Virus record (IMG/VR): IMGVR_UViG_3300011116_000834
Coordinates: 1-64,000 of that record
Reading direction: 5' to 3' (one strand)
Length of the DNA: 64,000 bases
From: a virus
Shown here: positions 32,569 through 60,913 of the stretch, piece by piece
Position numbering within the stretch: position 1 is the stretch's first letter
Layout: each line of letters begins with the position of its first letter
Notes under the pieces: model-generated
What the model was told of the DNA's origin: nothing
Seen by the model: only the letters and a program-made list of their open reading frames with translations
The model's database searches: none
Position numbers and translations under genes: made by a program

Positions 32569-33531
32569 ATGCCAGGTATTGGAAGTAATCCAGTAAGTTT
32601 AGCCGAAGGAACAACCTCATATCTATTTCCAGGCGATCCAGATATGATTGATTCTATTCCTTTGTGGATGAAATTTTACTGCTTTGAATATTCTAGTTCT
32701 GCTGCTAATCGTGTTGGAGCATATTTAAGAGCGCAAAATATGGCAAATGTGCCTTTGCTATCGAACATGAAAGCACAAATCTATGTTCCAGCACCCACAG
32801 CATTTGAATCCTCGACTTCTCTTTCATATAATAGATCTGCGACTACTGCTGGAAATGCACTTCCAGGAATGTTGAATAAATTGGTCGATATTGCATCTGG
32901 ATCCACGAATCCATGGGTTAAAATGGTGGCAAGTACGATCAAAGGCATCAAAGACGATGCAATGGATGCCCAAGAAGCAATTTCTAAATTGGTAGGCGGT
33001 GGATTTGGATATGGTCAGACCATTCCATTAGATCTGAATGATCTTACTTTTGTGGGAACTGGTTCTTATAGATCTTTCGATATTCGTCTATATCTGCCAT
33101 GCCTATCAGTAGAAGATTCCAAACGAGCAGGAGATCTCATCAGAGCATTTGAGGCATTATGTCTGCCTACTGCTTTGGGTGTTGGTGGTATATTTTCAAC
33201 TAGATATTATCATCCACCACTTTGGATCTTTGGAGTCGGACCTATTGATAGTATGAAATTTGATCCAGATTGGACTGGATATCCACAATTATCAGTATTG
33301 CAGGCAGTGAAGGTAAGAAAAACAGCAGTAGATGCAAATTCAATTGCTGCATTTTATCAGCAATCTTCATTTAAACCTGTTGCATATACTCTGAGTTTGC
33401 TTTTTAGAGAATTGGAACCAGCAATTAGAGTAACCTCAGTTGGTGGAGATTTAGGCACAACAATCACAAATCGCTCAGGTGCAATTATTGGAACTGGTAC
33501 AAATATAGCAGCAAAGGTAACCAACCAATAA
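32569..33531 (+). CDS. 48: Baseplate tail-tube cap gp48-like
   Basis: A 320-residue protein (T4: 364). LWMKFYCFEYS near the N-terminus, IYVPAPTAFES..SYN, and a C-terminal tube-like domain (LSVLQAVKVRKTAVDANSI) fit gp48. It caps the baseplate and starts tube polymerisation. AGGAG lies 7-9 nt before the ATG. It is the first gene of the long plus-strand virion operon; gene 53 follows after 1 nt. Confidence 0.75.
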   Translation: MPGIGSNPVSLAEGTTSYLFPGDPDMIDSIPLWMKFYCFEYSSSAANRVGAYLRAQNMANVPLLSNMKAQIYVPAPTAFESSTSLSYNRSATTAGNALPGMLNKLVDIASGSTNPWVKMVASTIKGIKDDAMDAQEAISKLVGGGFGYGQTIPLDLNDLTFVGTGSYRSFDIRLYLPCLSVEDSKRAGDLIRAFEALCLPTALGVGGIFSTRYYHPPLWIFGVGPIDSMKFDPDWTGYPQLSVLQAVKVRKTAVDANSIAAFYQQSSFKPVAYTLSLLFRELEPAIRVTSVGGDLGTTITNRSGAIIGTGTNIAAKVTNQ

Positions 33532-33532
33532 T

Positions 33533-34483
33533 ATGTTATTTAAAAACTATCCAACCATTTCATACACTTTTGGAAGTAAAACCGTAACCTTGGTTGATAT
33601 CTTTAAAAATGTATCATTCACCAATACAGATAATAACAATGCATTTGATGATTATTACATTCAGGATGGCGAAACTCCTGAAATGATATCATCAAAACGA
33701 TATGGAACTACTGGATATGCTTGGTTAGTTTTATTGACAAACAATATACTTGATATAAAGAATGATTGGTTCATAAGTGCATTTGAATTCAATCAAAAAA
33801 CCGAAACAAACTTTGGTGGAGATGCTGTCTATATTCCCGCTCTTCCAGATCTACAAGAAAACGATATCATGGTGAAGGTGACTGCACACAATAGCACCAA
33901 TGCAACAGCAATAAACAATCAAGCATATCGACATGTGTCGAGTTTTGATCCATATTTCAGAGTTGTTAGGGGAATCTGCGGTGGTGGTACTTTTGCTAAT
34001 GGTGATTATATTCTATTTGCAAGAAAGAACAATGATGGATCTGTAACTCCATTGACTTTTGATAATCAGGATATTTCTCCGTCAAAAGTCGATTATACAA
34101 ATATTCTTTATATTGAAGAATATAAAAACAGCATCGATTATATCATCACTGGAAATGGTGTCATTCTCACCCCATATACAAATGTCACATATCCAGGTGG
34201 AACAGCAATAGAGTCCAAGACATCATATCTGGATACTGAAAATCTCGATGTGCAAATAGAGAAAAATTTTGCAAATACATTAATCTATTATTATGGAAGT
34301 CATCATGGTTCATTGCCATCAGGAATTTCCAAAGTTGCATTAGCTACGGGCAATTATAATAAATATATCAAGAAGCAAAAGATAAGATTGCTTAAACCAG
34401 AATTATTGATTTCTGTTGTATCTGCTATTCAAAATGCATTGAATGGTGACAATGTCGGTAAGATTTTTAAAGTTGAAATATAA
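33533..34483 (+). CDS. 53: Baseplate wedge protein gp53-like
   Basis: A 316-residue protein (T4: 196). FKNYPTISYTF, DDYYIQDGETPEMISSKRYG and YAWLVLLTNNILDIKNDW are the gp53 signature. The C-terminal half is extra. In T4 it is part of the outer face of the wedge. Its stop overlaps the next start by one base (TAATG). Confidence 0.85.
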   Translation: MLFKNYPTISYTFGSKTVTLVDIFKNVSFTNTDNNNAFDDYYIQDGETPEMISSKRYGTTGYAWLVLLTNNILDIKNDWFISAFEFNQKTETNFGGDAVYIPALPDLQENDIMVKVTAHNSTNATAINNQAYRHVSSFDPYFRVVRGICGGGTFANGDYILFARKNNDGSVTPLTFDNQDISPSKVDYTNILYIEEYKNSIDYIITGNGVILTPYTNVTYPGGTAIESKTSYLDTENLDVQIEKNFANTLIYYYGSHHGSLPSGISKVALATGNYNKYIKKQKIRLLKPELLISVVSAIQNALNGDNVGKIFKVEI

Positions 34484-37400
34484 TGGCAAAAGAATTTGAA
34501 ACAATAACAAATATTAACAATGCCCAGCAGGGATCAACGACTCCCTCTGATGATGCTTTATCATCAAATGGCAATTTCATCAAATCAACTGAATCTAAGA
34601 TCATTGAACTCACTCTCACAAAAACTAATAGTTCTGGAGATGAGATAAAGTTTCAAATTCTTCCATGGGATGCCCAGGTATCGGTAACGAGTCCATTATC
34701 AAGTATAGGATTTAAAGAATCTTTGTTCAATGGATGTATATTTGGAAGTCTAATCGTATTTGATATACGAAATTGGACAGATGAATTTTTATTCAATGGA
34801 AATGAAAAGGTAAATATTAAATTCAAGATTGGAAAATCTGATAAAACCATAGACCTTTCATTTCACATATATGATGCCAAGGATATAACAGATGCTGCCA
34901 ACCAAATGGAAACGATGGCAGGAAATGAAAGAACTTCCATATGGGAACTTCATTTCATCAGTTCTGAATTATTTCTTCCAAACTACAATCAAACATTCCT
35001 AGAAGTCGATGAAGACTTTGTCGGAAAGATGGCAACAAAGGAAAATACTAAATCGCCCGATAAATCTCTCATTAATGAAATTTTTGATAGATTTGGATTT
35101 AAAACACATAAGATAGATCCATCAAATACTGGTGTCTGGTTAAAATATGATAATATATCATATCCCTGGATGAAGAGAAAAGGGCAAATGAGAATATCTC
35201 AATTGCTCAAGTATCTTGCAAATTATGCTCAAGCAGATTTCAATTATAGTCCTGATTTTTATTGCTGGGAAGATAGAAATGGTTGGAACTTTCGTTCAAT
35301 CAATAGCATCATAAATGAACAAAGTTCAGATGGCAAAATCAAACCAGTCGATGGATTTGCTATAACAATAGATGAAGCAAATCCCAATAGAATTCTCACA
35401 TTGCAAGTAATTACTGAATATAATATTCAGAATCTACTAGAAAATGGTGCATTGTTCTCAAACTATACAAGATATGAACCAAGTTATGATGATCCATATA
35501 TTGATTTCATATCTGCAAATGCAAATGGTGGATATACCGCCACCAATCAGTCTTACGACTACACCAAAGATGGTCCAGTAATAAAGAAAATTGATGATTA
35601 TCCATTAGTTTCCAAATTCTTCAAGACTAGTGCTTTAACTGCAAATAACACTCCAAAACCATCTGCAAGAATAGATGATGAAATTTACGGCAATTTTAAT
35701 TCTAATTTTTTAAACAGTCCAACTCAACAGGACTGGGACATCTATGCAAATACCAATAGTGGAGTATGGTCTAATAAATCCTGGCAACCACAATTTGATA
35801 TAACAAGTTCTGGATTTACTGATTTTAAGAAAATCTATACAAAAATTAGAAAACCATTGAAAGACAAGCGCAAGGAATATGCGCTGAAAAAAGATATAAA
35901 AAGAAAATGGGAAGTATATCGTTGCACTGTCTGCTGTCATGAAAATGGCGCACTTGGATCAACTGCTGATATTGCTTTACTTCAGAATCCTGGACCAGTG
36001 GATGGTTACACATATAATGCGCTTTATGGTCCTACTGGAATATATGCACAAACAGATAAAGAATATAAAGTAATTGCTGCTGGATCTTTTACAGATCTTC
36101 TCAATTATCAATCTGGAAATACTTTTTATGAACGAGGATTGACTTATTCGTATGATCTGACCAAAGCACCATACAATGAATCTCTTGGACAATTCTTCAA
36201 TATAACTGGTCCAGAAGCACCAGAAGCATATACGAAGTATGTGATAAAAAGAGCAACTCAGCAATATCAGATTATAATTGATAAATTAAATTCAAGAATT
36301 GCCGATCTTACCAATTTTACAACTCAGCGTGTTTTGTCTTATAAGCAAAATGCAGATGCTGTATTTGCTCAAGTGCAGATTACTAAAATTGGTGAACCCC
36401 AGAGAGATCTAAAGGCATCGACTACACGACCAGTAGATCTATTATTGGGAATATCAAATAGATTCATTGGTGATGCTATTCCAGGTGAAGTATTAACTGA
36501 TTGGCCAATCACTTCATACGAATTCGGAATGGTACCACATTCCAGACTTGAACCAAATCATGGTCTTGCTCAAGTGGTATTTGGTAGTAATCCAAATGCA
36601 TTGACTTCTCCTTCTATAACCTTTAGATCTGTAAATGGAACATATGCAACAAAAGCAACATGTGGTCCATCATCATATACTCGTTGGTGTGGATGTTGTG
36701 TAAATGGAACAAAGGTGTATACTCAAGTATGCATTCCATTTGAACCGCTGGATACTCTTACCGATAGAATCAATCAAGCAACAATCGATTGTAAAAATCA
36801 AGATTTCTGCAATTGTGCATTGACAGAATTTGTCGCAGATCCACCATCTGGACAATCATGTGAAATGTATGAATTGGTCGGTGGTGCCTGTTCTGCTGTT
36901 ATTGGGGATAATGGGTGCAGAACCAATCATGTTCCATGTTGTAGATCATCAAATAGTTTCTGTGGATGCCTACCACCTTCAGAATGCGCTGCTATAGGTG
37001 GATCTGAAATATCGAATATTTCAAATTGCTCTACATGTGGACCTGATGCTGGCGGTGGCGGTGGCGGTGGTGGTGGCGGTGGTGGAGGCATTCAAGGTCC
37101 ACCAGGACCCCCAGGACCCCCAGGTCCAACTGGTCCTACTGGTCCTACTGGACCCACTGGTCCAAGTTCTCTTCCAACTCCAGCAGATGTCAAGTATATC
37201 GATCCATGTTCATATAAGAATTGCTCCAATGATCCTGTTGTTCGTGGTTATATCAAGCATACTACAGCATCTGCTGGAGCAATCAGTCCAATCTATGGAT
37301 ATGCTGCATCTTATCTCTGGGATGATAATGAAGTCAGTGATTGGTCATTCTACGAATATGGTACTGATTCTGGATTAATTCCAGGAGTCGTTGATCCAGA

Positions 37401-40029
37401 TATCAAAGCAAAAACTCAATCATGTTTGAATCAATGCAATTGCTATAATACCACATGCTTGAGTTCTGTAGCACTGGAAGTTCTTAGAAGAACATGTGTT
37501 GCTGAAATTCAACTTCTAAAGGTTGAAGTTGAATTGATGACTTCACTGATGAATAAGATTGCGGATGAATATGAGACAAAATGGAAGAATTCATACTATG
37601 AATGGTATTCCAGAAATTCATTCTTCTTCTCAAAGAAACCAGGATCATCTATTTTTAAAAATGATTCCAAGGATACAGTACAGTCTCCATTATCATTGCA
37701 AAACATCAAATCAATCACCAGAAAGGAAGTTCGTGGAAGTAGATATGAACTTCTTGCCAGAAAGGTAGGATTGACTGGAGCAGAGGTTGGTCCGTGGATG
37801 TATGACATTTATTTTGGAGGATTAACTGCATCCACTGCTCATCCATATTACGATCAGCAATATGCAACAGATTCATACATTACTTCAAGAAAACCACATG
37901 CATGGTTTGGGTATCAAGATGCCGATGCAACGGATGATCCCACATTCTTTGATGATTCTGGATTTGCATATACTGGTCAACAATTGAATTCGACTCCCGA
38001 TTATAAGGGATCTGAATATGTTGAAAATGCTGTATTGCATATAGGCACAAATGATATTCAGGATATAAGCAATGCAAGTGGTATGAATAATTACGGATAT
38101 GCACAATCTGATCTATCCAAACAAGATGGGAATGCATCCATATCATCGGTAAATGATATTACTAAATTTAGAAATACCTTTAATTTCTTTGATACCAATG
38201 GTAAGAAACCACCAAATATAAAAAAGGAAGAAATATCCTCTTATGTTCGCATAGAGTTTTCAACTCCAATTGGGTTGGATAGAGCAAAGGATTTTCCAAA
38301 TGGATTTATTCGAGATGCTGGAGTGGAGTATTTCCTTCCATATCTGGTGAATCTAACAACTGGTCCGTTTGGAAGACAAGGCGTTAAGTACAACTGCGCT
38401 GTCATTGGAATGGATCCATATGGATTTGATGTTGCTGTTAAGAAAATCAAAGATGATCTTCCAACCAATAGAAAACTACAGGGCATAGACAAGGGCAACT
38501 ATTACAACTGGTGGAATCATGATACAGGTTCTGTCTTATCGAAGACGACCTATTTGACTTCCGATTACAATGGAATGGATCTATGGCCTGAAGCAGGATT
38601 CGAAACAGAATTCCCATATTATTCATATGATGCAAGTCAGGAAGATCTCCATGGTGGTGGATATGACATGGATTTCCATATGGGTGGTGGATATTACTTT
38701 GAGAATGAATCTCAGAATTGGATGGAATCTCTCTATCATTATGGCATGAGCAGCAACAAGCAATTTGATCCATTATATCGAACTTCGGTGGTTGGATCAT
38801 ATGTTCTACCCAATAGTTACAGAAAACTCAAACCACATCGTTCTTGGTGGTCATTGTTTATTCCTAGAAATCTTTTTATACCAATTCGTTTTGCAAATAT
38901 GTTTAAGACACCAAATACCAAGGCAAGAGATTTATTTGGTGGAAAGGCAATATTTACAATATCTCCCAATTATTGGAGAACTTGGTATGGAAGTGAATTC
39001 TCAAATTGGATAAATCTATCCAAATCGGCAGTGACTCCAATTCTAGATTCACTGGCACCAGATCTTAATTTCCTTGTCGATGATCATGATGAAGTTGCTG
39101 GAAATACTCAAAAGACTTACATCTCCGCACATACGGAAGATTCTGCCGTAACTGGTTATTTCCGTGATTCATTGATGCATTATCTTGCTGGAAACTATAT
39201 TCTTTATAGACCATCTCTTGTAGTCACAGACATATGGAAATACGATCTTAGTGGAGAAACTGAATATGGATTGGTAACTCCACCAGTTGATACTGAATAT
39301 GATTTCTTTGATCGTAATTTTGCATTACAGTTCACGGTATTTGGAAGAAGCAGTAGAACATGTGAAGATCTTGGACTTAAGTGTGCAAATCCAAATGCAA
39401 TAAAGAATGGACCAATTGCCTCGTCATCTAGTTGCAATCAAGCACCATATTGCAATTGTCCAGCAAAATCTGTAATGCCTAAGGAAGCAGAACCAACATA
39501 TCTTGAACTGTATAGATTGAAGAATGAAATTAATGAATGTTCATTGATTGAGCAGAATCTAGGCAAAGAGTACCTTGGATGTGAATACGCAGATCCTTCG
39601 TCATCTTGTAGTTGCAATTGTCCAGAGCAAGGAAGCAAGTTCAAGGATTATCTTAAATACAATAGAACTTATGCTACATTCTGGGATGTTTCTGAAAATC
39701 TACCCCTACGAAGAATTGCTGCAACGAATCAGTTGCAAGCACAGAAGATAAAAATTAAAATTGCACCAAATGATAAGATTGAAATTGGTTCAATAGTTGA
39801 GATCATAAGTCAAAACGATCTGCCATCTGAAACTGCAAATCAATACAAGAAAATATCGGGTAGATGGATGATCGTAGAGATTGAACATCTCATGGCAGGA
39901 ACCATTGGATATGTAATGACTGTTACTCTTGTAAGAAATAGTCTACATTATGATCCCAATTTACCCCAACAACCATTGGCAGTATTTGGTAAATTAGATG
40001 AAAAGAAAAATAACGATACTACGGGATAA
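34483..40029 (+). CDS. Giant baseplate hub protein (gp27-like ends with a 1300-residue insertion)
   Basis: A 1848-residue protein. Residues about 30-330 resemble a gp27-type hub (PWDAQVSVTSPLSSIGFKE, SLLEN-type strands), and the last 120 residues carry the hub end GRWMIVEIEH...YVMTVTLVRNSL. T4 gp27 is only 391 residues. Between them lie Cys-rich modules (from about 480), a Gly run (about 857-868), a collagen-like GPP/GPT stretch (about 870-895), a long helical pair with Cys residues, and a large beta domain. The insertion could project from the baseplate as an adhesin or needle shield. Starts one base into the preceding stop; full length without frameshift. Confidence 0.75.
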   Translation: MAKEFETITNINNAQQGSTTPSDDALSSNGNFIKSTESKIIELTLTKTNSSGDEIKFQILPWDAQVSVTSPLSSIGFKESLFNGCIFGSLIVFDIRNWTDEFLFNGNEKVNIKFKIGKSDKTIDLSFHIYDAKDITDAANQMETMAGNERTSIWELHFISSELFLPNYNQTFLEVDEDFVGKMATKENTKSPDKSLINEIFDRFGFKTHKIDPSNTGVWLKYDNISYPWMKRKGQMRISQLLKYLANYAQADFNYSPDFYCWEDRNGWNFRSINSIINEQSSDGKIKPVDGFAITIDEANPNRILTLQVITEYNIQNLLENGALFSNYTRYEPSYDDPYIDFISANANGGYTATNQSYDYTKDGPVIKKIDDYPLVSKFFKTSALTANNTPKPSARIDDEIYGNFNSNFLNSPTQQDWDIYANTNSGVWSNKSWQPQFDITSSGFTDFKKIYTKIRKPLKDKRKEYALKKDIKRKWEVYRCTVCCHENGALGSTADIALLQNPGPVDGYTYNALYGPTGIYAQTDKEYKVIAAGSFTDLLNYQSGNTFYERGLTYSYDLTKAPYNESLGQFFNITGPEAPEAYTKYVIKRATQQYQIIIDKLNSRIADLTNFTTQRVLSYKQNADAVFAQVQITKIGEPQRDLKASTTRPVDLLLGISNRFIGDAIPGEVLTDWPITSYEFGMVPHSRLEPNHGLAQVVFGSNPNALTSPSITFRSVNGTYATKATCGPSSYTRWCGCCVNGTKVYTQVCIPFEPLDTLTDRINQATIDCKNQDFCNCALTEFVADPPSGQSCEMYELVGGACSAVIGDNGCRTNHVPCCRSSNSFCGCLPPSECAAIGGSEISNISNCSTCGPDAGGGGGGGGGGGGGIQGPPGPPGPPGPTGPTGPTGPTGPSSLPTPADVKYIDPCSYKNCSNDPVVRGYIKHTTASAGAISPIYGYAASYLWDDNEVSDWSFYEYGTDSGLIPGVVDPDIKAKTQSCLNQCNCYNTTCLSSVALEVLRRTCVAEIQLLKVEVELMTSLMNKIADEYETKWKNSYYEWYSRNSFFFSKKPGSSIFKNDSKDTVQSPLSLQNIKSITRKEVRGSRYELLARKVGLTGAEVGPWMYDIYFGGLTASTAHPYYDQQYATDSYITSRKPHAWFGYQDADATDDPTFFDDSGFAYTGQQLNSTPDYKGSEYVENAVLHIGTNDIQDISNASGMNNYGYAQSDLSKQDGNASISSVNDITKFRNTFNFFDTNGKKPPNIKKEEISSYVRIEFSTPIGLDRAKDFPNGFIRDAGVEYFLPYLVNLTTGPFGRQGVKYNCAVIGMDPYGFDVAVKKIKDDLPTNRKLQGIDKGNYYNWWNHDTGSVLSKTTYLTSDYNGMDLWPEAGFETEFPYYSYDASQEDLHGGGYDMDFHMGGGYYFENESQNWMESLYHYGMSSNKQFDPLYRTSVVGSYVLPNSYRKLKPHRSWWSLFIPRNLFIPIRFANMFKTPNTKARDLFGGKAIFTISPNYWRTWYGSEFSNWINLSKSAVTPILDSLAPDLNFLVDDHDEVAGNTQKTYISAHTEDSAVTGYFRDSLMHYLAGNYILYRPSLVVTDIWKYDLSGETEYGLVTPPVDTEYDFFDRNFALQFTVFGRSSRTCEDLGLKCANPNAIKNGPIASSSSCNQAPYCNCPAKSVMPKEAEPTYLELYRLKNEINECSLIEQNLGKEYLGCEYADPSSSCSCNCPEQGSKFKDYLKYNRTYATFWDVSENLPLRRIAATNQLQAQKIKIKIAPNDKIEIGSIVEIISQNDLPSETANQYKKISGRWMIVEIEHLMAGTIGYVMTVTLVRNSLHYDPNLPQQPLAVFGKLDEKKNNDTTG

Positions 40030-40037: not shown

Positions 40038-40433
40038 ATGCTAAAGAAACAAATCAGTTATATTGATATTCCATTCTTCATTAGCAAGAATTCATTTACA
40101 AATGATTTCAATGTCACCCGTGATTTGAATGCCATTCGTCAATCTTTGAAAAACATCATCTTAACAAATACTGGTGAGCGATCATTTGATTATAAATTTG
40201 GATGCAGCATCTATGATTTTCTTTTTGACAATTTTACAATGGATCTTGTTATTAAGGCGCAATCAACAATTGCTGGAAATATTCAAAGATATGAAGGCAA
40301 TAGAGTTGGAATAAACGATGTTCGTGTTCTTAATGTGCCTAAGGAAAATAAAATAAATATCGTAGTAGATTTTAATATTCCAGATGTGGGAATTTCAGAT
40401 ATCCTAACAGTTAGTATATTAAGGACAAGATAA
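40038..40433 (+). CDS. 25: Baseplate wedge protein gp25
   Basis: A 131-residue protein (T4: 132). DLNAIRQSLKNIILTNTGER followed by FDYKFGCSIYDFLFDNF is the signature of the gp25 family (also present in type VI secretion). It forms part of the wedge core with gp6 and gp7. Its stop overlaps the ATG of gene 6 by one base. Confidence 0.95.
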   Translation: MLKKQISYIDIPFFISKNSFTNDFNVTRDLNAIRQSLKNIILTNTGERSFDYKFGCSIYDFLFDNFTMDLVIKAQSTIAGNIQRYEGNRVGINDVRVLNVPKENKINIVVDFNIPDVGISDILTVSILRTR

Positions 40434-43358: not shown

Positions 43359-45107
43359 ATGAGTACAAAAAGTCAAAATACTAAAAACTTCATAAATCAA
43401 ACAGGTGTTCAAAAACAACTGTTTGTCTTTGTAGGATCCGATACCACAAATAGCACCTCAAATTCAACTCAAACAGCAATTGATATATGGAACCATTCAG
43501 ATTTTGCTTTGCGAGTTGGACAAAATAGTGTTTCGGCAGTTGTTCCAAATTACAAATGGATTGCTAAAAGAGCATATACTCCATGGTCTTCGGAAAATTC
43601 AAACACTGGCAATTTTTACGCATATAATGATCAAAATGGATATGTCTATGTCTGCATATCTGATAATGCCAGTAATATTGTCACAACTTATAAAAATATC
43701 TCCAACATCAGACCTACGCATATTTCTGGAATTGAAACATATTCAGATGGATATTCCTGGTTGTGTTTATATAAGATTACTCCATCTTACGAGAGATTCA
43801 TAACATCAAAATGGATTCCTGTATTTTCATTTGATACATTTGATGCCACGGAACAGCAAACTCAATTGCAACAAACTCAAACATTTTGCGATTCTTCTAC
43901 TGGAGAAATTGGAAAATGTGCGATCTATGCAAAACTTGCTTTAAGCACAGATGATGATGCTGGAACAATTGAATATCAATCTGGAGCATTGTTTACTATT
44001 GCAGAAAACATAACATGCAGTGATTGTTACTATTTGATGTATAACAATGATAAATTTACATCAGTATTCTATTCCATCTCCGATACTATACCATCAACCA
44101 TGGTTGTAAAGGATGCATATGAGCAAGTGGGAGATCTTATACTTGAAAATCAATTATCAAGCGCATCTCCATATTATTATCTGTATAACATCAATGAAAA
44201 TTCAAATCTAAATGATGGATGTATACTTTCTGCATTTCTAGATCTTAGATCATTCACAAATGATCAATTAATCGTCAATCAAGAAAATCCAGAATTTACA
44301 ATTTCTAGCAATACTGGTTCTGATGGCAGAATTAGATTACTTACAAATATAATTCAAGATTCATATGTTATAACTGGAATTGAAGTCATTTCTAGGGGAT
44401 CCAATTATAAAGAAATCATTCTTGATATGAATGATTCAATTTTCAATGGTATAAGTGCCTCCACATTGATTGATAAAATCAATGTCAATTTGGATAAAAT
44501 CGATCATATCGGAATAGATCCAGTTTCTGTTCTAGGTGCTGAACATGCGATGATTGATGCTAGAATAGAAAAGAAAACATTAACAGATGCGGGAATAGGA
44601 ATTCCTCAAGTTGTAAATTTCTTTGGTCTTATTGAAAATCCTATCGGAATATCTGGATCGATTGAAGTTATTTCGGGAAGTGATTTTAATAAAAAAGTAG
44701 ATATATTATATCGAACTACTATAAAGGCAGGAATTTCAGTTTTGGGATCAAGTAGTATTTTGCCAATTACTGATGAAGTATATGATACAACAACACCAAA
44801 AGGAGAACCAATTAGCGATTTGACTATAGGTGGAATTGATAATATCATCAGTGGTGTTACTTCTAGTTGTGTGGCAGAAATTAAAAATGTCCCATATCAA
44901 AATGCAACAGATTTAATCGATTCTGTATTGGTTGGTCCTATTGGAGGATTTCCAAAAACAGGTTCAACTATAGACACAATAGAAGAAATTCCAACATTTG
45001 TTCAATATACTGGAAGTATATTATCGACTACTAAGTTGACATCAGATCTTCCAATATCTGATGTAGATTCTATAATTATTCGTATAAATATGGTTAGAGG
45101 AATGTAA
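43359..45107 (+). CDS. Baseplate wedge protein, gp8-like
   Basis: A 582-residue protein (T4 gp8: 334). DIWNHSDFALRVGQNSVSAVV, WIAKRAYTPWSS, GYVYVCISDN and SDGYSWLCLYKITPSYERF follow the order of gp8 motifs. The C-terminal half is a long beta-rich extension. In T4 gp8 supports the outer wedge. Gene order after the gp7-like gene supports this. Overlaps the next start by one base. Confidence 0.6.
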   Translation: MSTKSQNTKNFINQTGVQKQLFVFVGSDTTNSTSNSTQTAIDIWNHSDFALRVGQNSVSAVVPNYKWIAKRAYTPWSSENSNTGNFYAYNDQNGYVYVCISDNASNIVTTYKNISNIRPTHISGIETYSDGYSWLCLYKITPSYERFITSKWIPVFSFDTFDATEQQTQLQQTQTFCDSSTGEIGKCAIYAKLALSTDDDAGTIEYQSGALFTIAENITCSDCYYLMYNNDKFTSVFYSISDTIPSTMVVKDAYEQVGDLILENQLSSASPYYYLYNINENSNLNDGCILSAFLDLRSFTNDQLIVNQENPEFTISSNTGSDGRIRLLTNIIQDSYVITGIEVISRGSNYKEIILDMNDSIFNGISASTLIDKINVNLDKIDHIGIDPVSVLGAEHAMIDARIEKKTLTDAGIGIPQVVNFFGLIENPIGISGSIEVISGSDFNKKVDILYRTTIKAGISVLGSSSILPITDEVYDTTTPKGEPISDLTIGGIDNIISGVTSSCVAEIKNVPYQNATDLIDSVLVGPIGGFPKTGSTIDTIEEIPTFVQYTGSILSTTKLTSDLPISDVDSIIIRINMVRGM

Positions 45108-49287: not shown

Positions 49288-52200
49288 ATGATTATAGGTA
49301 GTAGTCCATATCTTCAAAGAAAAATATTAGGAATAACTGGTCCAACTGGAGCAACTGGAATCACTGGTCCAGATGGTCATATTGGTGCCACTGGATATCA
49401 GGGAAACACTGGAAATACAGGTGGTAGTGTAGTTGGAATGACTTTGTCAAATTCAACTGTAATTACTACATTTTCCGATAATACTACATTTGTAGGAAGC
49501 AATATTCTAGGAGAAACTGGAAATTATTATATTTCAGTTGGTGCTGAAAATATTTCTGGAAATGGTATTGGAGTTGTTGCTGGAGTTTCATATTCAACAT
49601 TATCCAATGGAAATCTTCTAGGAAATGTCCGTATTCGTGGATTTACGACTTCGTCTTCCAGAACTGGAAATGCAGTTGTATCGATAAATGGTTCATTTGA
49701 TTCTCCAAATATTGGAATAACCTACAATTTAACAAATATTGCATATCTTGGTATATGTGGTGGTTCCAATGGTGAACTTATTGTTTATAAATCTGGTACA
49801 GAATTTTATGGATTGACTGGAACATATTACGATAGTACAGATAAAACTGTCGATATGCAAGTCATGAATTATGGTGAAAGAGTTCACTTTGTTCAACCAA
49901 TTAAAAAATCAATATATGATCCAGATACTGGAAATCAAACTGTTGGTAGATATTTCTATTGGCCTATTGATTGGGAAAAGGCAAATGTATTTGTATTGAA
50001 TTCCTTTGAAAGTAGTATAATTCCAGGTGAAAGAATCGATGGGCAAATTGTATTAGTACGCAATCCCCCATCTGGCGATGTTGCTAAAGGCATCACTATA
50101 GTAGTTCCTTCTGGCGTTACATCATCGAATAGTATCTTAACAAAATATGCAGTTACTGATACATTATCGACAGGAATTACTCTTGATATTGGAACATATT
50201 CCATTTCATGGCCATTATCCTATCCTCCATGTCTTACAACTGGAACTGATGTAATCAATATGATTTCATTGGATAATATCTGGTATGCAAATTTTGGTAA
50301 ATATAATAGTGGAACAGAACAAGTTCAATGGAACGCAGATTATTCTAATTGCTTAGGATCATTGAATCTTCAAGATGATCAAGTCACAAATCCAAATATT
50401 GGAACAGGAACACAGGGACCTCCACTTGATCCAATTTGTGGAACCAATCTCAATACCATAGGATTATGTTGCATTGCATGTTCATCTGGAGATTCCACCG
50501 TTACAACTTGTGAAGCGTGCAAACCACTTATTCAACAAGGTGTTGCTAGATTCTTCCCAGATCAAGGTGATGGATATCTAGGATGCACAGCAGAAACAGA
50601 TGTTAGAGGTATTTGCTGCTATAAAGATGTAAATGGCAATATAGTCAAGGATAGCGATCCACTTGGAATTCGTCTATGCGACTGCACAAGAAAAGCAAAT
50701 GCTTTTGTGGGACGACCTTGGTACAATTGGGAAGAATTCAGCGACTGTGTGCCCAACATTGATGCAATTAATTGTCAAAATTCATATGATAATGTAGGAG
50801 CATGTTGCGATGGATCTGGCAATTGCACATCCACAACTCAGGCAAACTGCACAAAATATTGGCAAGGAAAAGGTCGTGCTTGTTCATATTCTAATGGATT
50901 CAACACGATCTCTCCATGTCGTCAAGGTGCTGGTGGTTGCTGCAAGAATGGAATATGCAATGATGTAGTCGATGGTCAGACGAATTGCATTGATACTAAC
51001 GGTAAATTCTTTGGTTGTAATAATTACTGTGGTTCATTTGAATGTTCCATTGCATATAAGGGATGTTCTTGTGGCACCTCATTGACAGAAGATGCTTTCG
51101 TGGTTGAACAGCATTTATCATCTTCTAATGCTATATTACCAGATACCTGGGCATTCGAGCAACAAGGCAATCCAGCAGGAAGTGGAACTCTTACTCATCA
51201 ACTTAAGATTGGTGATGAATTTGCTGGAGGAATCGTCGCTGGTATTTTTAAACCAAAGGGAACTAGATGCTTTGGATCAACTGCAATGGGTGGTGTCCCT
51301 GCTGCTTATACTCCAGCAAAGAATGATGATAGTATTGCTTCTCACAATTTATTCAATTTTTTGAATACTTCATCTGAATCTAGTTGCGATTATTATTATA
51401 GTCAATACGATCCTTCTGGATATGGTTTCACTTTGCCAAGTGGACATAATGGCGATGAAGATGGTTGGTTATTGATTGTTAGTAAATTTCCAGTAATTAT
51501 AGATCAATATTATAATAATATACACAATACTGTAACATCTGGCGTAAATGGAAACCATCAGGCAGTTCCTTCTTCAGTTTTAAGTGGAACTGCTCCTGCA
51601 TTTCCTGCTACTACAAATTATGAAAATGGCACACCAACAACACTGAATGTCAATACAGGATCTCAATCAAATCAAGCAAGATATATCTATTCAAAGAATT
51701 TTAGATTAACTCATGGTGGAACTGCATTCTCATCCGTAGCATTTGATAAATTTACAGCTACAGCACCATCTACAACAGAACAATCAAGATCAAATTGGAA
51801 TCTTTGTGATTCACATCATCCAGGATCAAATATTCCACACGATGGTACATATGGAACAATAGGTGCTACTTATTGGGCAAATACCACCACATTCAATGAC
51901 TGTGCGGATACTCAATATACATGCAATGAATGCGCTGATTATCCGTTTGCCAGATCTAGAAGAGGTTGGGAATCTACTAAGGCAAGTCAGAATGGTAATT
52001 TCAGTAGAAATTGGGGATTATTTAATACAATAAGAATTATTAATTCTGATATATCTGAAATATATCTTCGACCTGGAAATGGTTTATATCCTGATTCTAA
52101 TAGAATTTTCTATGGCGGAAGACCATATACAGGTCTAGATCCAGATCCAGGATATACAGGACTATTTCAAATGGCAGGAACATTTGGATATACTCTTGCA

Positions 52201-53112
52201 TATCAATTAACTACTGCTGGAGAAGCATGTTCAATTTGGAATCGTTATTATTATCCATCTGATATTCCACCAAATCCAACATCTCCAACATTAACAAGTT
52301 TTGTTGCAGGAAAACAATTTGTTCCAAATGCAAATCGTCCAGATGGAACTCAATACAATAATGCAATCATTGGAAACACTCAATGGCTGGGAACTTTATA
52401 TCCTCAATTATCAAGATGGTATATTCCCAGCATTGATGAATTGGCATTCATTGCCGCACAATGCGTAGATCCTGTTGTGAATCTACAACAGAAAATTGCC
52501 GATGCTAAGGGAATAAGAATAGGAAATCTATTTGCAAATTCCACAACGCAAAATGCATTACCATCAACAGATGCAAATGCTGGATATGTATGGTCTTCTA
52601 CCATGACATTCAATGAAGTAGTGACTGCACAATATCTACAACCAGTAAATATAAGTCAACCTGGTGCAACTTCTGGTGGAGCATATACTGCGGCACAATT
52701 GACTAATGCTCATTTTACTAAAGCTTGGGCAATGAAATTCGATACTGGAACTGCTGCTGTTCTTCCAAATACTACTGCATTTAAAGTTGCAAAACGCAAT
52801 TCACAAAAATTATTAAATGATAATACAAATAATAGATTTGAATTGCGTTTAGTAAGACAGATAAGATGTGATCGTAAATTCTATTGGAATGGCGATAATA
52901 CAAGATATAGAAATACATTCTGGGCAGTTCCACGACTCACGCCATCAGATGTAGTCACTGGAATGCCTTTTGAAAATGCAGGACCTGTTGGATCTGCTGG
53001 ATTTACATTCCCAAATGCTACAAATCTTTCTTCATATATCAATGACCTAAATACTTTTATTGGAACTATTCATAAGAATAATATAAACAATACTGGTACT
53101 ATAACAGGATAA
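49288..53112 (+). CDS. Collagen-like, Cys-rich tail adhesin with Lcl/DUF1566-type domain
   Basis: A 1274-residue protein. A short N-terminus is followed by a collagen-like GxT/GxD stretch (about 13-45), a beta region, Cys modules with CC-x-x-G-x-C (about 390-590) and a C-terminal domain with SRWYIPSIDELAFIAAQ, VWSSTMTFNE and FELRLVRQIRC (about 1043-1195), as in the Lcl_C/DUF1566 fold. That fold binds glycans in some bacterial adhesins. It starts one base after the previous stop. Confidence 0.75.
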   Translation: MIIGSSPYLQRKILGITGPTGATGITGPDGHIGATGYQGNTGNTGGSVVGMTLSNSTVITTFSDNTTFVGSNILGETGNYYISVGAENISGNGIGVVAGVSYSTLSNGNLLGNVRIRGFTTSSSRTGNAVVSINGSFDSPNIGITYNLTNIAYLGICGGSNGELIVYKSGTEFYGLTGTYYDSTDKTVDMQVMNYGERVHFVQPIKKSIYDPDTGNQTVGRYFYWPIDWEKANVFVLNSFESSIIPGERIDGQIVLVRNPPSGDVAKGITIVVPSGVTSSNSILTKYAVTDTLSTGITLDIGTYSISWPLSYPPCLTTGTDVINMISLDNIWYANFGKYNSGTEQVQWNADYSNCLGSLNLQDDQVTNPNIGTGTQGPPLDPICGTNLNTIGLCCIACSSGDSTVTTCEACKPLIQQGVARFFPDQGDGYLGCTAETDVRGICCYKDVNGNIVKDSDPLGIRLCDCTRKANAFVGRPWYNWEEFSDCVPNIDAINCQNSYDNVGACCDGSGNCTSTTQANCTKYWQGKGRACSYSNGFNTISPCRQGAGGCCKNGICNDVVDGQTNCIDTNGKFFGCNNYCGSFECSIAYKGCSCGTSLTEDAFVVEQHLSSSNAILPDTWAFEQQGNPAGSGTLTHQLKIGDEFAGGIVAGIFKPKGTRCFGSTAMGGVPAAYTPAKNDDSIASHNLFNFLNTSSESSCDYYYSQYDPSGYGFTLPSGHNGDEDGWLLIVSKFPVIIDQYYNNIHNTVTSGVNGNHQAVPSSVLSGTAPAFPATTNYENGTPTTLNVNTGSQSNQARYIYSKNFRLTHGGTAFSSVAFDKFTATAPSTTEQSRSNWNLCDSHHPGSNIPHDGTYGTIGATYWANTTTFNDCADTQYTCNECADYPFARSRRGWESTKASQNGNFSRNWGLFNTIRIINSDISEIYLRPGNGLYPDSNRIFYGGRPYTGLDPDPGYTGLFQMAGTFGYTLAYQLTTAGEACSIWNRYYYPSDIPPNPTSPTLTSFVAGKQFVPNANRPDGTQYNNAIIGNTQWLGTLYPQLSRWYIPSIDELAFIAAQCVDPVVNLQQKIADAKGIRIGNLFANSTTQNALPSTDANAGYVWSSTMTFNEVVTAQYLQPVNISQPGATSGGAYTAAQLTNAHFTKAWAMKFDTGTAAVLPNTTAFKVAKRNSQKLLNDNTNNRFELRLVRQIRCDRKFYWNGDNTRYRNTFWAVPRLTPSDVVTGMPFENAGPVGSAGFTFPNATNLSSYINDLNTFIGTIHKNNINNTGTITG

Positions 53113-53126
53113 TTGGAAACAATAAA

Positions 53127-56100
53127 ATGATATATGGGTCATCTCGCATCAAACAAACCATAACAGGAACAGTTCCTGGTGCTGTACAAGGTTCAACTGG
53201 ACATATAGGTCCAACTGGCAATACTGGTCCAACTGGTCCTACAGGACCTATAGGTGCCACAGGTGCAACAGGAAATGGAATCACTGGAGCAACTGGAATT
53301 TCCACGGGAATTACATTTTATGGTAATGGGTTATCCTTTTCATTTTTAAATTTAAAGGGATCTGCGGGATCTGCTAATGGTAGCGAATATTATCAAGTAA
53401 TTGGACTTGGCATCGATTCAGCACAAATATCAACAAATATAGTTTATGGAGATGTTATACAAGTTGGTGCTGGACAGACAGCGTATTTCAAGAGTATATC
53501 GATTTCAGGGCAAGCACCAATTCCAAATGTATCTCCGTTTGTTGGTGTTAGTACTGATAATATCTCGGTAGTTTACATTTATGGTGCTACGGTATCAGAT
53601 GCAAATATGCCATTGGGTAATACTGGCGAATTGCTTTATGTAAATAGCAATGCTGGATTTGGATTAGGAACATTAAAGGCATCATCAGCACCTAGTACCA
53701 ATTGGATTCCATCTCAAAGACAACTTATAATAGATCAAAAAGCATTTAGGGAAGCAATATTCTCTAATAAAAATTGGTCTACAGTTGGATCTGATCCATT
53801 CTTATATTATACAACTCCTGTTGATTTTTCATATTATGGAACTCTAACTGGAGAAACATATGGAACATCCAATCTAGAAAACAATATAACTCCAAATTTT
53901 ATATACTATTCTGGATCTGGGTTGGATTCTTATGGATTAGTCAATGATCCAAACACATATCAAGACATATCAATTGGTCAGACAATAGTCCTTGGGTTGA
54001 CTAGTGGCGCAACAATGGAAAGAATAGATTTCATTAGTGCCACTGGGATTACATTTTCAAATACATATCTCCCCCAGAATATAGTCAGAAGTGATATTGG
54101 TTCCTGTTGTTTCTGCAATATGATCGATAAACAAAGAGTGTGCGTGGATTATGTCTCATCTTCATTCTGTTCAGCTCTTTCTGGAACCTTTGATACCAAT
54201 TCATGCAATGATAGAACTAGTGGATCTGATTGCTTCACTGAAGGTGCTTGCTGCATATATGATATTGAAACTGGATCAACTAGATGCATCAATACTACAA
54301 GAGAAAAATGCTCAACATACAATGGATATTTCAATGAATCAAAACAATGCGATAATGTTTGGGTAAATGGACAACTATTTTCATGCCCAACCAGTTTCTG
54401 CAATATAGGAACACGACAACTTGGCAAATGTTGCGTCCAAGGCAATTGCTTTAACTTAACAAAAGCAGATTGTGCTTCCGTATTTGGTTCTGTATTCTTT
54501 GCTGGTCAGACCTGCACATCCCAGACTAGTGATGCATCATGCTGCGGAACATTAGATCTTCGAGGATCATGCTGCGTACAAGGTAATTGTGTTGGCAATG
54601 TCACAGCACAACAATGTTCAACAACATATAATGGTATATTCCAAGGATCTGGAACCAAGTGCACAGAAGTCAATTGTTGCGGTTATTCATTCTCGGATGA
54701 TTATTTCAAAGGATCTTGTGCAGATTCATGCAAGGCATATGGATCACAACAGATCTATTCTTGCCTGAATATAGGCGATAAGATTGGTGGTGGATATTTT
54801 GCGGGATTTGTCGGTATGCCAAATCCGTGCAATAATTTTTCAACTCCAAATCTTGCATATGGTGAACCATTGGAATGCATGATATTCCCCCGAGGAGAAC
54901 TTGCAAATGTGCCTACATGGTATCTAAAGACATGCAATGGTACCGATGGTACAAATAATGAAGGGTGTATTGATTATTTTGCACGAACATATCCAATAAC
55001 ACTTCCAAAGAATTCATTGGATTCGCGGTGTATGCTCAAGGCAGGAGTTCCATTTGTTCAGCAAGCATACGCACTTGATGGAATCACATGGCCTTCTGAA
55101 ATGATGTTTAGTGGTGGATATCAATATAGCAGAAATCGTGGTGCATTCTCATACTCATTAGTTGGTTCTGGTCTTGCTGTTGAATACTTAGATGGCACAG
55201 AAACCAATCTATATCGTTATCTTGCATCAAAGGTTTATGGAAATAATGACATTCAAATCTTATGGGCATTGATTATTGCTCCTGAAGATGTTGAATTGGG
55301 AAGCGGTGAAAGGTCCTTATCATGGGGCATGATGCAAGGATGTCATAATCCTGATTCTTCTGGAATTCCGCAACAATTGGTTATTGAAGAAATTCCAACA
55401 TATCCAACTGATGGATTATTAACTACAAGATTGCACGATTCATCTTCCAAAAACAATGCAGATTATTGGTTCAGGGGAACAACTGATTCAAATGCATATA
55501 ATAGATTTAATTTTGGAAATGGACCAGCATGGGATATTGGAACAGATAAGACTACTATAACCACAAATAAGACTGAATTTTTAACTGCTTACAGCAAGAT
55601 GTGGGATAAAAAGAATCCTTTGGATTCTGCACTTCGCCAGATCTCCAATATAAATGAGAATTCAACATATGGATATAATGATTGGTATATTCCAAGCATA
55701 ATTGAATTGAATTATATTCAAGCAAACTCTGCTACATTAAATGCAGCTTTGGCGGTAAATGGGGATCAGATAATTGGTGGTTATGAATATTGGTCATCCA
55801 CCAGTGTAAGTAGACTTGCATCATGGGATGCTACCGATCCTCTCAACAAAGATTTATATCGGTTGGAAAATATTAGTTCTCAAATTGAACCATATCTAAG
55901 CGATCATAGAATAACCAGCAGTGATTCATTTGGACTCACTGAAGATGAAGCATATAAATTTACGCTTGCTGTATCCAATGGTCAAAAAATGCTTACTCAG
56001 GTATTTAATTCATTGCAAAACGATCAAATTGGTAGAATGATTTCTAGAAGTAGAGATAGCAAGATTGCCAATCTTCGTCCAGTTAGAAGAATACCACTTG

Positions 56101-56213
56101 TGGTAACTTGCAATGGATTCTATTATAGCAATAGAATTCTAAATAATTATTGGAGTTCAGGTAGCACAGGATGTGCTTCTTGCCTGGATGTCGCGGAAGG
56201 AATGTGTTCGTGA
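53127..56213 (+). CDS. Collagen-like, Cys-rich tail adhesin, paralogue
   Basis: A 1028-residue protein with the same order as the preceding one. Collagen-like GPTGPT stretch (about 27-55), beta region, Cys modules (about 325-525, for example GACCIYDIETGS, GKCCVQGNCFNL, GSCCVQGNC), and the C-terminal domain with NDWYIPSIIELNYIQ, YWSSTSVSR and ANLRPVRRI (about 851-981). The pair are diverged duplicates. Its stop overlaps the GTG start of the next gene as GTGA. Confidence 0.75.
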   Translation: MIYGSSRIKQTITGTVPGAVQGSTGHIGPTGNTGPTGPTGPIGATGATGNGITGATGISTGITFYGNGLSFSFLNLKGSAGSANGSEYYQVIGLGIDSAQISTNIVYGDVIQVGAGQTAYFKSISISGQAPIPNVSPFVGVSTDNISVVYIYGATVSDANMPLGNTGELLYVNSNAGFGLGTLKASSAPSTNWIPSQRQLIIDQKAFREAIFSNKNWSTVGSDPFLYYTTPVDFSYYGTLTGETYGTSNLENNITPNFIYYSGSGLDSYGLVNDPNTYQDISIGQTIVLGLTSGATMERIDFISATGITFSNTYLPQNIVRSDIGSCCFCNMIDKQRVCVDYVSSSFCSALSGTFDTNSCNDRTSGSDCFTEGACCIYDIETGSTRCINTTREKCSTYNGYFNESKQCDNVWVNGQLFSCPTSFCNIGTRQLGKCCVQGNCFNLTKADCASVFGSVFFAGQTCTSQTSDASCCGTLDLRGSCCVQGNCVGNVTAQQCSTTYNGIFQGSGTKCTEVNCCGYSFSDDYFKGSCADSCKAYGSQQIYSCLNIGDKIGGGYFAGFVGMPNPCNNFSTPNLAYGEPLECMIFPRGELANVPTWYLKTCNGTDGTNNEGCIDYFARTYPITLPKNSLDSRCMLKAGVPFVQQAYALDGITWPSEMMFSGGYQYSRNRGAFSYSLVGSGLAVEYLDGTETNLYRYLASKVYGNNDIQILWALIIAPEDVELGSGERSLSWGMMQGCHNPDSSGIPQQLVIEEIPTYPTDGLLTTRLHDSSSKNNADYWFRGTTDSNAYNRFNFGNGPAWDIGTDKTTITTNKTEFLTAYSKMWDKKNPLDSALRQISNINENSTYGYNDWYIPSIIELNYIQANSATLNAALAVNGDQIIGGYEYWSSTSVSRLASWDATDPLNKDLYRLENISSQIEPYLSDHRITSSDSFGLTEDEAYKFTLAVSNGQKMLTQVFNSLQNDQIGRMISRSRDSKIANLRPVRRIPLVVTCNGFYYSNRILNNYWSSGSTGCASCLDVAEGMCS

Positions 56214-58762
56214 GTAGTAGCGCAATAATCAATTTTATTGTATCTGGTTTATCTGGAAATGATGGTGCTGCTGGTCCAACTGGACCCACAGGATCAACAG
56301 GATCGACTGGTCCAACTGGTCCAACTGGTCCTCTTGGACGATATTTTGTATCGTCTGTTGCATCAGGTAATTCATTGATTCTTACATTTTCCGATGGAAC
56401 AACTGCTTCATTAGTAGGAAGTTTCAAGGGAGCAACTACTGCTGATAAATCTGCTGGAATTGTTCGTGGAGGAAATACAGGAACAAATACAACCAATGGT
56501 GGATTGCTGTACAGTGTCTCTGGAGGAACATTTAGTTTTAAAGGTGTATGTGCTTATGGTTCTTTACGAGCATCTTTGACTGGTGCCAATTCAGAATATA
56601 TTTCAATCGATAGCATTTATTATGGCAAGGATGTTCTTGGAAATTATACACCCGCGACTCTTGTAGCGCGCGATCTATTGTATATTGGTGAAAAAACTAG
56701 TGCATATGGTGCAAATCTAAAACATAGAAGCGATATAGGATTTGCAGGTCTATGCGGTGCATTTGATTTTTCATACACACAATACAATGCGGGAGCAAGT
56801 GCAGATACCAGCACACATTTAAACGCTGGTTCCAAGATATATTCATATGGTCCATTACGCAGAGGAAGCGTGATTGATGGAAGCACTCTGGGAATTATTG
56901 TTGATGCACAAAAAGGTGGTGTATTCAATCTAAGAACACCAATTGGCATACAAGGAATAACAGGAAACTTCAAAGTAAATGAAGTTGCTTCGATCACTCT
57001 TGTCATTGATTCTGATAATGTCTGGCATTTCCCAGAAAACATATACTTTGGACCAGATGAAAATTATCTTTCTTGTGGTAAGAACATAATAGGTCTTCTT
57101 ACATATGATGGAGGAAAGACCTGGTTGGCAACCCCATCTCATCGTGGTCATGGAATAGAAAACATTGGAAGACAATGCATTCCTGGTGCTTTATATGGAT
57201 CATGTTGCTATACAAAAGCAGATGGCACGCTCAATTGCAAGGATTATACCACTTCCGAGGAATGTGATAAATTTTTTGGAACATTCCATGCAGCACAATC
57301 ATGTGAACAAACATGTGGCGATGTCAATAGTATTTGTTGTGCAAATGGAAATTGTATTTCTGGAGTATCAGTTACTGAATGTGAAAAATTCGGTGGCGAT
57401 TACTGGTCGAATGTAACATGCGATGATTATAATCCAAATGGTTCCAATATACCAGATCAGGTTCTTTATATCAGTCCAGAGGATGTAAAGGCACAAGGAA
57501 GATTCTGCTATGATCCTTGCGGTGAACCAACAGTATGCTGCAAAGATGGTAGATGTCTTGGCAACTACACTAGAATTCAATGTGAATTTTTTCTTGGTGG
57601 AAAATCCTTAACTGGTGCTAGCTGCAATGATGTTGATTGCTGCAACCATACTTCAATACCAGGAGCATGCTGTACCTGTACAACAAATCCAGATTCCACA
57701 ATTACTTCTTCGTGTGCATCCAACCTAACTTACACACAATGCAAGGAAACTGGTGGAGTATTCATGGGTCCAGGAAAACAATGTAATGAAGTAAGTTGTG
57801 GGTGTGTATGCAGTGGAAGCAGTGGCGGAACTCCAACAGATACAGGTGCATGTTGCAATGCATCTCTTGGCATATGCAATGATGGAGTGACTATAAATCA
57901 ATGCACTGCTGCTGGATTTATTTTCACACAAGGAGCAGCATGTTCTGATGTGTGTTCATCGTCTACTAATGGAATTTGCTGTAAAGATGGAACATGTCTT
58001 TCTACTGCAACAAATAGTGCTTCTTGCATTAGTGCTGGTGGCAATTGGTTGGGTCCAGTTCAATTTGCATATAATGGCACAGTTAAAAATTATGTTTTTG
58101 GTTCAAATGAAAACGATTGTGAACTATGTGCATTATCTAGACCATATTTTAGCATAATCGATCCTGGTAGTTGTTATCCAAATATAGAATTTGGAAGAAT
58201 TCCTACAGATATATCATTTATCGATGCAACCTATAGTTCCGATATACTTTATAGCGGGTTATTGAATATTTATGGTACTGTGTACACCAATACAAGAGAT
58301 CAACTGATTGAGATCTTAACATGTCCAAGTACTGATGCAATTGATGCTGCCATATATTCTGCGGCAACACTTATTTTTAATAATTCTGGGTGGTCTGTGG
58401 GAATGGGATGTCCAAAATCGTGCTGTCAATGCAATGGAGCAAGTGCTGTAAATTGCGGACCATATGGAACAGCAACATCACTTGATCAGATATGCAATAG
58501 TCAAGACTTGTGTTCACCTGGATATTTAGCAATTGCACCTGGAGAATCATGTGGTGGACTTGGGCAAGCTGGTGGTGGAGGAGGAGGCGGTGGTCATTCT
58601 CCATGCTCACCATCCTCATCGTGTGCGAATGAATATATTCCTCCGCCAAATTCTGGATTCCTTGATGCGTATGTGAAGAATGTAAAAGTAACCATAAATA
58701 ATGAAGTACTTTGTCTTCCAATTATTTGCGATGATTGCACTGGTTACGAATTCTGCGAGTAA
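56210..58762 (+). CDS. Collagen-like, Cys-rich tail adhesin
   Basis: An 850-residue protein from the GTG at 56210. Hydrophobic start, collagen-like GPTGPTGSTGSTGPTG (about 20-45), beta region, then six Cys modules of the type CC-x-(2,3)-G-x-C...C...G (about 330-630; examples SICCANGNC, TVCCKDGRC, GICCKDGTC), and a Gly run (about 790). No Lcl-type domain is visible. The Cys pattern is common in exported proteins of planctomycetes, as I recall. Confidence 0.7.
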   Translation: MSSSAIINFIVSGLSGNDGAAGPTGPTGSTGSTGPTGPTGPLGRYFVSSVASGNSLILTFSDGTTASLVGSFKGATTADKSAGIVRGGNTGTNTTNGGLLYSVSGGTFSFKGVCAYGSLRASLTGANSEYISIDSIYYGKDVLGNYTPATLVARDLLYIGEKTSAYGANLKHRSDIGFAGLCGAFDFSYTQYNAGASADTSTHLNAGSKIYSYGPLRRGSVIDGSTLGIIVDAQKGGVFNLRTPIGIQGITGNFKVNEVASITLVIDSDNVWHFPENIYFGPDENYLSCGKNIIGLLTYDGGKTWLATPSHRGHGIENIGRQCIPGALYGSCCYTKADGTLNCKDYTTSEECDKFFGTFHAAQSCEQTCGDVNSICCANGNCISGVSVTECEKFGGDYWSNVTCDDYNPNGSNIPDQVLYISPEDVKAQGRFCYDPCGEPTVCCKDGRCLGNYTRIQCEFFLGGKSLTGASCNDVDCCNHTSIPGACCTCTTNPDSTITSSCASNLTYTQCKETGGVFMGPGKQCNEVSCGCVCSGSSGGTPTDTGACCNASLGICNDGVTINQCTAAGFIFTQGAACSDVCSSSTNGICCKDGTCLSTATNSASCISAGGNWLGPVQFAYNGTVKNYVFGSNENDCELCALSRPYFSIIDPGSCYPNIEFGRIPTDISFIDATYSSDILYSGLLNIYGTVYTNTRDQLIEILTCPSTDAIDAAIYSAATLIFNNSGWSVGMGCPKSCCQCNGASAVNCGPYGTATSLDQICNSQDLCSPGYLAIAPGESCGGLGQAGGGGGGGGHSPCSPSSSCANEYIPPPNSGFLDAYVKNVKVTINNEVLCLPIICDDCTGYEFCE

Positions 58763-60878: not shown

Positions 60879-60913
60879 ACTCTCCTTATAAATAACATAA
60901 GGAGAGTTTTCAT
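60879..60913 (+). promoter_or_regulatory. Hairpin with late promoter in its loop and RBS in its right arm (gene 13)
   Basis: ACTCTCCTTAT pairs with ATAAGGAGAGT (11 bp) followed by TTTT, a terminator-like hairpin. TATAAATA at 60887-60894 lies across the left arm and loop. The GGAGAG ribosome binding site is in the right arm. Transcripts begun at the late promoter (expected start at about 60901) lack the left arm and leave the site open. Confidence 0.7.

Follow-up and report, generated by a model that had tools for sequence, protein, structure and literature searches.

For contractile tails, the textbook device that punctures the cell is the pair of gp27 and gp5. The gp27 trimer of T4 forms a hollow cylinder around three N-terminal domains of gp5; D1 of gp27 comprises residues 2-111, its second barrel residues 207-239 plus 307-368 (PMC3004832). 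In T4-like phages the hub family phrog_350 is flanked by gp53 and gp5, and a hub of this kind forms a pseudo-sixfold trimeric ring on the tail tube. These hubs follow gp53 directly in avDM6, phiN3 and PhiW-14 and occupy a comparable place in Syn2; those sampled from cultured phages are 416-487 aa long. Larger hubs are already known. The hub gp15 of Anabaena myophage A-1(L), of ~900 aa, carries extra domains around its barrel, recognisably lysozyme, endoglucanase and peptidase, and this phage has kept a separate OB/needle spike, gp25 (PMC10966104). T5 pb3, lambda gpL/gpJ and the RcGTA hub/megatron likewise carry domains inserted into those of the hub; a Cys-bound iron-sulfur cluster is held by gpL and by the RcGTA hub, and the tube of siphophages and RcGTA is closed by the hub or by neighbouring domains (PMC10721106, PMC7296036). 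In phage Milano disulfides occur throughout the tail (PMC10811340). VgrG of type VI secretion, a gp27-gp5 fusion, combines hub and tip in one chain.

The window, i.e., the whole stretch of 64,000 nucleotides analysed here, is part of a 108 kb record and contains at 34483-40029 an uninterrupted ATG ORF of 1848 aa according to ORF call and translation. We designate its product the giant hub. With the phrog_350 hubs (avDM6, phiN3, PhiW-14, P-SSM2, HTVC008M) and, by fold, with T4 gp27 it shares the D1-D2-D3 fold, the sequence family and the place after gp53; those hubs, however, have no insert and are accompanied by gp5 in the same genome, a usual though not strictly defining trait. Across its clade the hub reaches three- to fivefold the ordinary size. 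An earlier note on this DNA had put hubs normally near 400 residues, which agrees with the phrog_350 hubs sampled but not with the larger A-1(L) and T5 pb3 proteins. T5 pb3, gpL/gpJ and the RcGTA proteins differ in that they belong to non-contractile tails and have their insertion elsewhere (HDII); no sequence match to them was found. VgrG is a good match to the hub fold, yet its tip is C-terminal to a complete hub, whereas the giant hub has its extra part inside the hub and neither an OB domain nor a needle repeat was found in it. A hub-spike fusion of the VgrG type does not agree with the last hub strands, which come only after the insert and end the protein. We consider it probable, if by no means certain, that in this T4-type hub the role of spike or tip has passed to the insert. 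In the literature searched we found neither a T4-like hub carrying an insert of this kind nor a T4-like clade devoid of recognisable gp5 described.

The features of the locus are the following:

33533..34483, + strand: gp53-like wedge gene directly upstream of the giant hub (phrog_232, PF11246)
34483..40029, + strand: giant hub ORF, 1848 aa (ORF, translation; 55 non-identical full-length relatives)
34573..35814, + strand: hub D1, D2 and first part of D3, gp27-like, aa 31-444 (phrog_350; Foldseek/VIA match to T4 gp27 4-290)
35815..36402, + strand: start of the insert, two long helices and CxxCC (C481, C484, C485), aa 445-640 (helices from the model; the three Cys invariant in 45/45)
36583..37050, + strand: variable Cys-rich linker, aa 701-856 (whole linker 0-403 aa across the family)
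37051..37167, + strand: 13 Gly, then 8 Gly-Pro-X triplets, collagen-like, aa 857-895 (residue count; only in the lineage around the window)
37168..39342, + strand: conserved insert core without a recognised fold, aa 896-1620 (703-859 aa in all full-length relatives)
39343..39687, + strand: nine-Cys module, return of the chain to the hub, aa 1621-1735 (its nine Cys unchanged in 54-55 of 54-55 sequences; length 109-121 aa)
39688..40026, + strand: end of hub D3 (last barrel strands) and tail, aa 1736-1848 (phrog_350 positions 341-429; VIA last-barrel matches to VgrG, MuSo2 and Mu gp44)
40038..40433, + strand: gp25, directly downstream of the giant hub, at the slot where gp5 is expected first (phrog_261, PF04965)

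The hub parts and their gene neighbourhood

The gene is embedded in a T4-like baseplate cluster. A gene at 32569, marginally matching a tube cap family, is followed by gp53 (33533), the giant hub, gp25 (40038), gp6 (40433) and more wedge genes; beyond these lie large fibre-type ORFs and neck genes, and the remainder of the record encodes a T4-type terminase, sheath, tube, portal and major head protein. By head protein the closest cultured relatives are cyanophages and pelagiphages, at ~55% identity. The virus is an uncultured T4-like myovirus of a widespread aquatic group. The order of genes is constant: gp53 is the upstream neighbour of the giant hub in 54/54 relatives, and the next recognised gene is gp25 or gp6 in 53/53. 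Boxes resembling the T4 late promoter, TATAAATA, stand at 45083-45090 and 60887-60894 of the window, directly before ORFs at 45107 and 60914; the window does not hold more of them than expected by chance.

Both ends of the product match the phrog_350 profile independently. Residues 64-392 correspond to profile positions 27-320, a match found in 41/42 family members, and residues 1736-1822 to positions 341-429 of 436, found in 47/53. In the reverse direction, HMMs built from the giant family alone match ordinary hubs of 416-452 aa at both ends, and a profile of the second half, run against 14 cultured phage genomes, gave significant matches only at the hub C-terminus. T4 gp27 itself is too diverged for a phrog_350 match, so that its link to the giant hub rests on the fold. 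An AlphaFold model of residues 1-850, computed from a 42-sequence alignment of loci gathered in this analysis, has a pLDDT of ~65-85 over most of the hub part. Compared by fold, residues 29-444 of this model come closest to T4 gp27 (Foldseek E 9e-7; Z 11.2 over gp27 4-286). The last D3 strands are missing from the N-terminal model, the two hub parts having been modelled apart; in the model of the second half the last barrel, 1736-1821, matches the final barrels of VgrG, MuSo2 and Mu gp44 with Z ~5, weak by itself but consistent. The earlier note had claimed gp27-type ends around a giant insertion, and the profiles in both directions and the fold comparison bear this out; the contrary proposition, ends unlike gp27, was examined and found no support. 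We regard the identity of the product as a hub as secure. By homology, residues 31-444 and 1736-1821 would together form a hub which continues the tail tube. In S-SKS1 (NC_020851.1, 182670-183958) the hub is unannotated and split over two frames, by sequencing error or as a real split.

Composition and conservation of the insert

The hub matches end at residue 444 and resume at 1736, thus the insert spans ~445-1735, about 1290 residues, and breaks the hub fold near the T4 D2/D3 boundary; measured by the published T4 gp27 limits it is placed where D2 returns to the second barrel (PMC3004832). The size of about 1300 residues given in the earlier note stands, its limits of 330-1730 do not. The Cys, poly-Gly and collagen-like elements noticed previously are all present: the giant hub has 41 Cys, 13 Gly at 857-869 and 8 Gly-Pro-X triplets at 872-895. 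The latter form a Pro-rich Gly-X-Y run and are collagen-like in this sense; they could form a triple helix.

Structure prediction succeeded for the gp27-like N-terminal half, less so for the second half, with a mean pLDDT of 51; the large beta domains put forward in the earlier note found no confirmation in it. The insert core, 896-1620, has no match in Pfam or PHROG, and a comparison of its fold with the PDB gave nothing significant, using a low-confidence model dominated by the final barrel. In a BFVD fold search the named significant or near-significant matches were tail- or hub-type fragments. A sequence search of solved structures with the giant hub returned only collagen VI or noise.

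Altogether 55 non-identical full-length giant hubs were collected, the copy of the window included. They are 1535-2179 aa long, are all uncultured and from viral metagenome contigs, and share one architecture with the parts in the same order: D1D2, the helical CxxCC block (block 1), core, Cys module and last barrel. Across the group the insert amounts to roughly 1,000-1,300 aa. The lengths of the parts differ in their latitude: block 1 with its flank has 190-345 aa, the linker 0-403, the core 703-859 and the Cys module 109-121. Further relatives exist, as the Cys module has 238 matches and block 1 has 138. Shorter intermediates, suggested as a search target, were not found; the only other proteins combining D1D2 with the last barrel are ordinary hubs. 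The second half was not found in cultured phages, and no relatives of the giant hub were found in bacterial or archaeal genomes.

Wherever the respective sequence is present 14 Cys are invariant, i.e., 481, 484, 485, 914, 992 and the nine of the Cys module. For close pairs dN/dS is ~0.06-0.09 over the whole gene, and the quarter which bears the core is among its most constrained parts. Judged from these ratios, the insert is under purifying selection.

A different picture emerges for the collagen repeats. They are restricted to the clade to which the window belongs; distant clades (in a tree without printed support values) lack them and keep the remaining parts of the insert. Their confinement to one clade marks them as an addition, not as the basis of the design; the collagen/Cys part, emphasised in the earlier note, is not the essential one. 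By its distribution, the collagen/Cys-rich linker (~701-895) is a lineage-specific add-on, and the shared insert consists of the helical CxxCC block, the core and the nine-Cys module. For the same reason collagen as an essential spike was rejected. In other clades (L082:5062-11556; L086:5035-11571; L081, L091, L109) the linker site holds ~200-400 aa, Cys-rich and free of collagen. With such different contents per clade, additional domains seem to be accommodated at this site. The virus of the window makes frequent use of collagen-like modules: its record contains four large fibre-type ORFs which have Gly-X-Y runs of 8-17 triplets as well (window 49288-53112, 53127-56213 and 56171-58762; L117:10591-13410), in three of them near the N-terminus.

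The missing gp5 and the proposed tail tip

In avDM6 and phiN3 gp5 lies between the hub and gp25. In the giant-hub records, all of them fragments of at most 157 kb, no gp5 was recognised. The profile phrog_694, which found gp5 in T4, in pelagiphages and altogether in 14/15 cultured phages, matched in 0/15 giant-hub records; its single miss in the control is a single-cell record likewise without a hub match. Neither phrog_430 nor phrog_1922 found gp5 in these fragments. A custom gp5 profile, which in a separate control test found every known gp5 in the set and nothing else among the loci, gave no match in 25 giant-hub records, again fragments. The PAAR tip (PF05488) was without a match in 15 records, T4-like PAAR proteins not being among the controls; a search with PF06714, silent in its control, was uninformative. 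We also asked whether gp5 is fused into the insert, and reject this. The OB-fold N-terminal domain of gp5 was not matched in the giant-hub family by phrog_430, 694 or 1922, hhalign of 14 gp5s against both halves of the giant hub gave probabilities near 0, and the octapeptide repeats of the gp5C-type needle, seen in gp5 of T4, avDM6 and phiN3, are absent from all ORFs of the window's record.

The previous suggestion that the insertion replaces gp5 functions thereby gains strong circumstantial support, as gp5 is found neither where it normally stands nor in any of the records searched; the replacement itself is what we infer. More tentatively, the clade as a whole may have given up the gp5 spike, its tip then being the giant hub insert, novel in fold, furnished with conserved Cys clusters and, in a single lineage, also with a collagen triple helix. 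The insert leaves the hub fold at the gp27 D2 to D3 passage via a long helix and the CxxCC motif, and re-enters it via the nine-Cys module. The position of Cys clusters at both exit and re-entry suggests a stapled base, and the conserved Cys could pin it by metal, an Fe-S cluster or disulfide bonds. If the giant hub is trimeric like T4 gp27, three inserts would be brought side by side, sealing the tube and most likely serving as the tip instead of the missing gp5. A collagen run requires three chains, which fits a trimer, and in the lineage of the window the short triple helix of 8 triplets could join them. A common aquatic clade which has so large a hub and lacks a recognisable gp5 suggests that the tail tube is closed and opened, and the envelope breached, in some other manner, and it raises a testable question, namely which part forms the tip in giant-hub tails.

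Possible, though in our estimate unlikely, is that the hub is real and its insert a sideways or outward arm, binding receptors or contacting the wedges, with a strongly diverged spike encoded elsewhere. As the records are fragments, room for such a spike exists, and PhiW-14 and nACB2 encode gp5 away from the hub; moreover, the linker differs between lineages, as parts in contact with the host often do. Yet the gp5 profiles remained without a match in all 15-25 records, and the core is more conserved than the first half of the hub, unlike typical receptor-binding domains.

That the insert is mainly an envelope-digesting enzyme borne on the hub has a precedent in A-1(L) (PMC10966104), and T4 gp5 carries a lysozyme which the giant-hub viruses lack together with gp5. 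Nevertheless, a search of 53 or 42 family members revealed no Pfam enzyme domain save two borderline matches, each in a single member, and no hydrolase is among the significant fold matches of the admittedly poor model, which makes an enzyme improbable. That two genes were joined by a sequencing or assembly error, as a few broken ORFs among the relatives might hint, has a negligible likelihood, and chance or artefact is rejected: 55 non-identical ORFs are intact and stem from many samples, the gene order is constant, and purifying selection extends along the entire gene.

Apparent splits of the gene are due to a run of N in L090 and L119 and to one stop in L085. The giant hub genes at L256:5648-12540 and L261:4544-13424 are split into three ORFs. 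The first encodes the hub N-terminal part, block 1 and most of the core; the second, in another frame, a Cys-rich product of 620 and 918 aa, respectively; the third, with its own ATG, the end of the core, the Cys module and the last barrel. In this arrangement the last hub strands would be a separate chain. The T4 late-promoter box TATAAATA stands just before the second and the third ORF in both loci.
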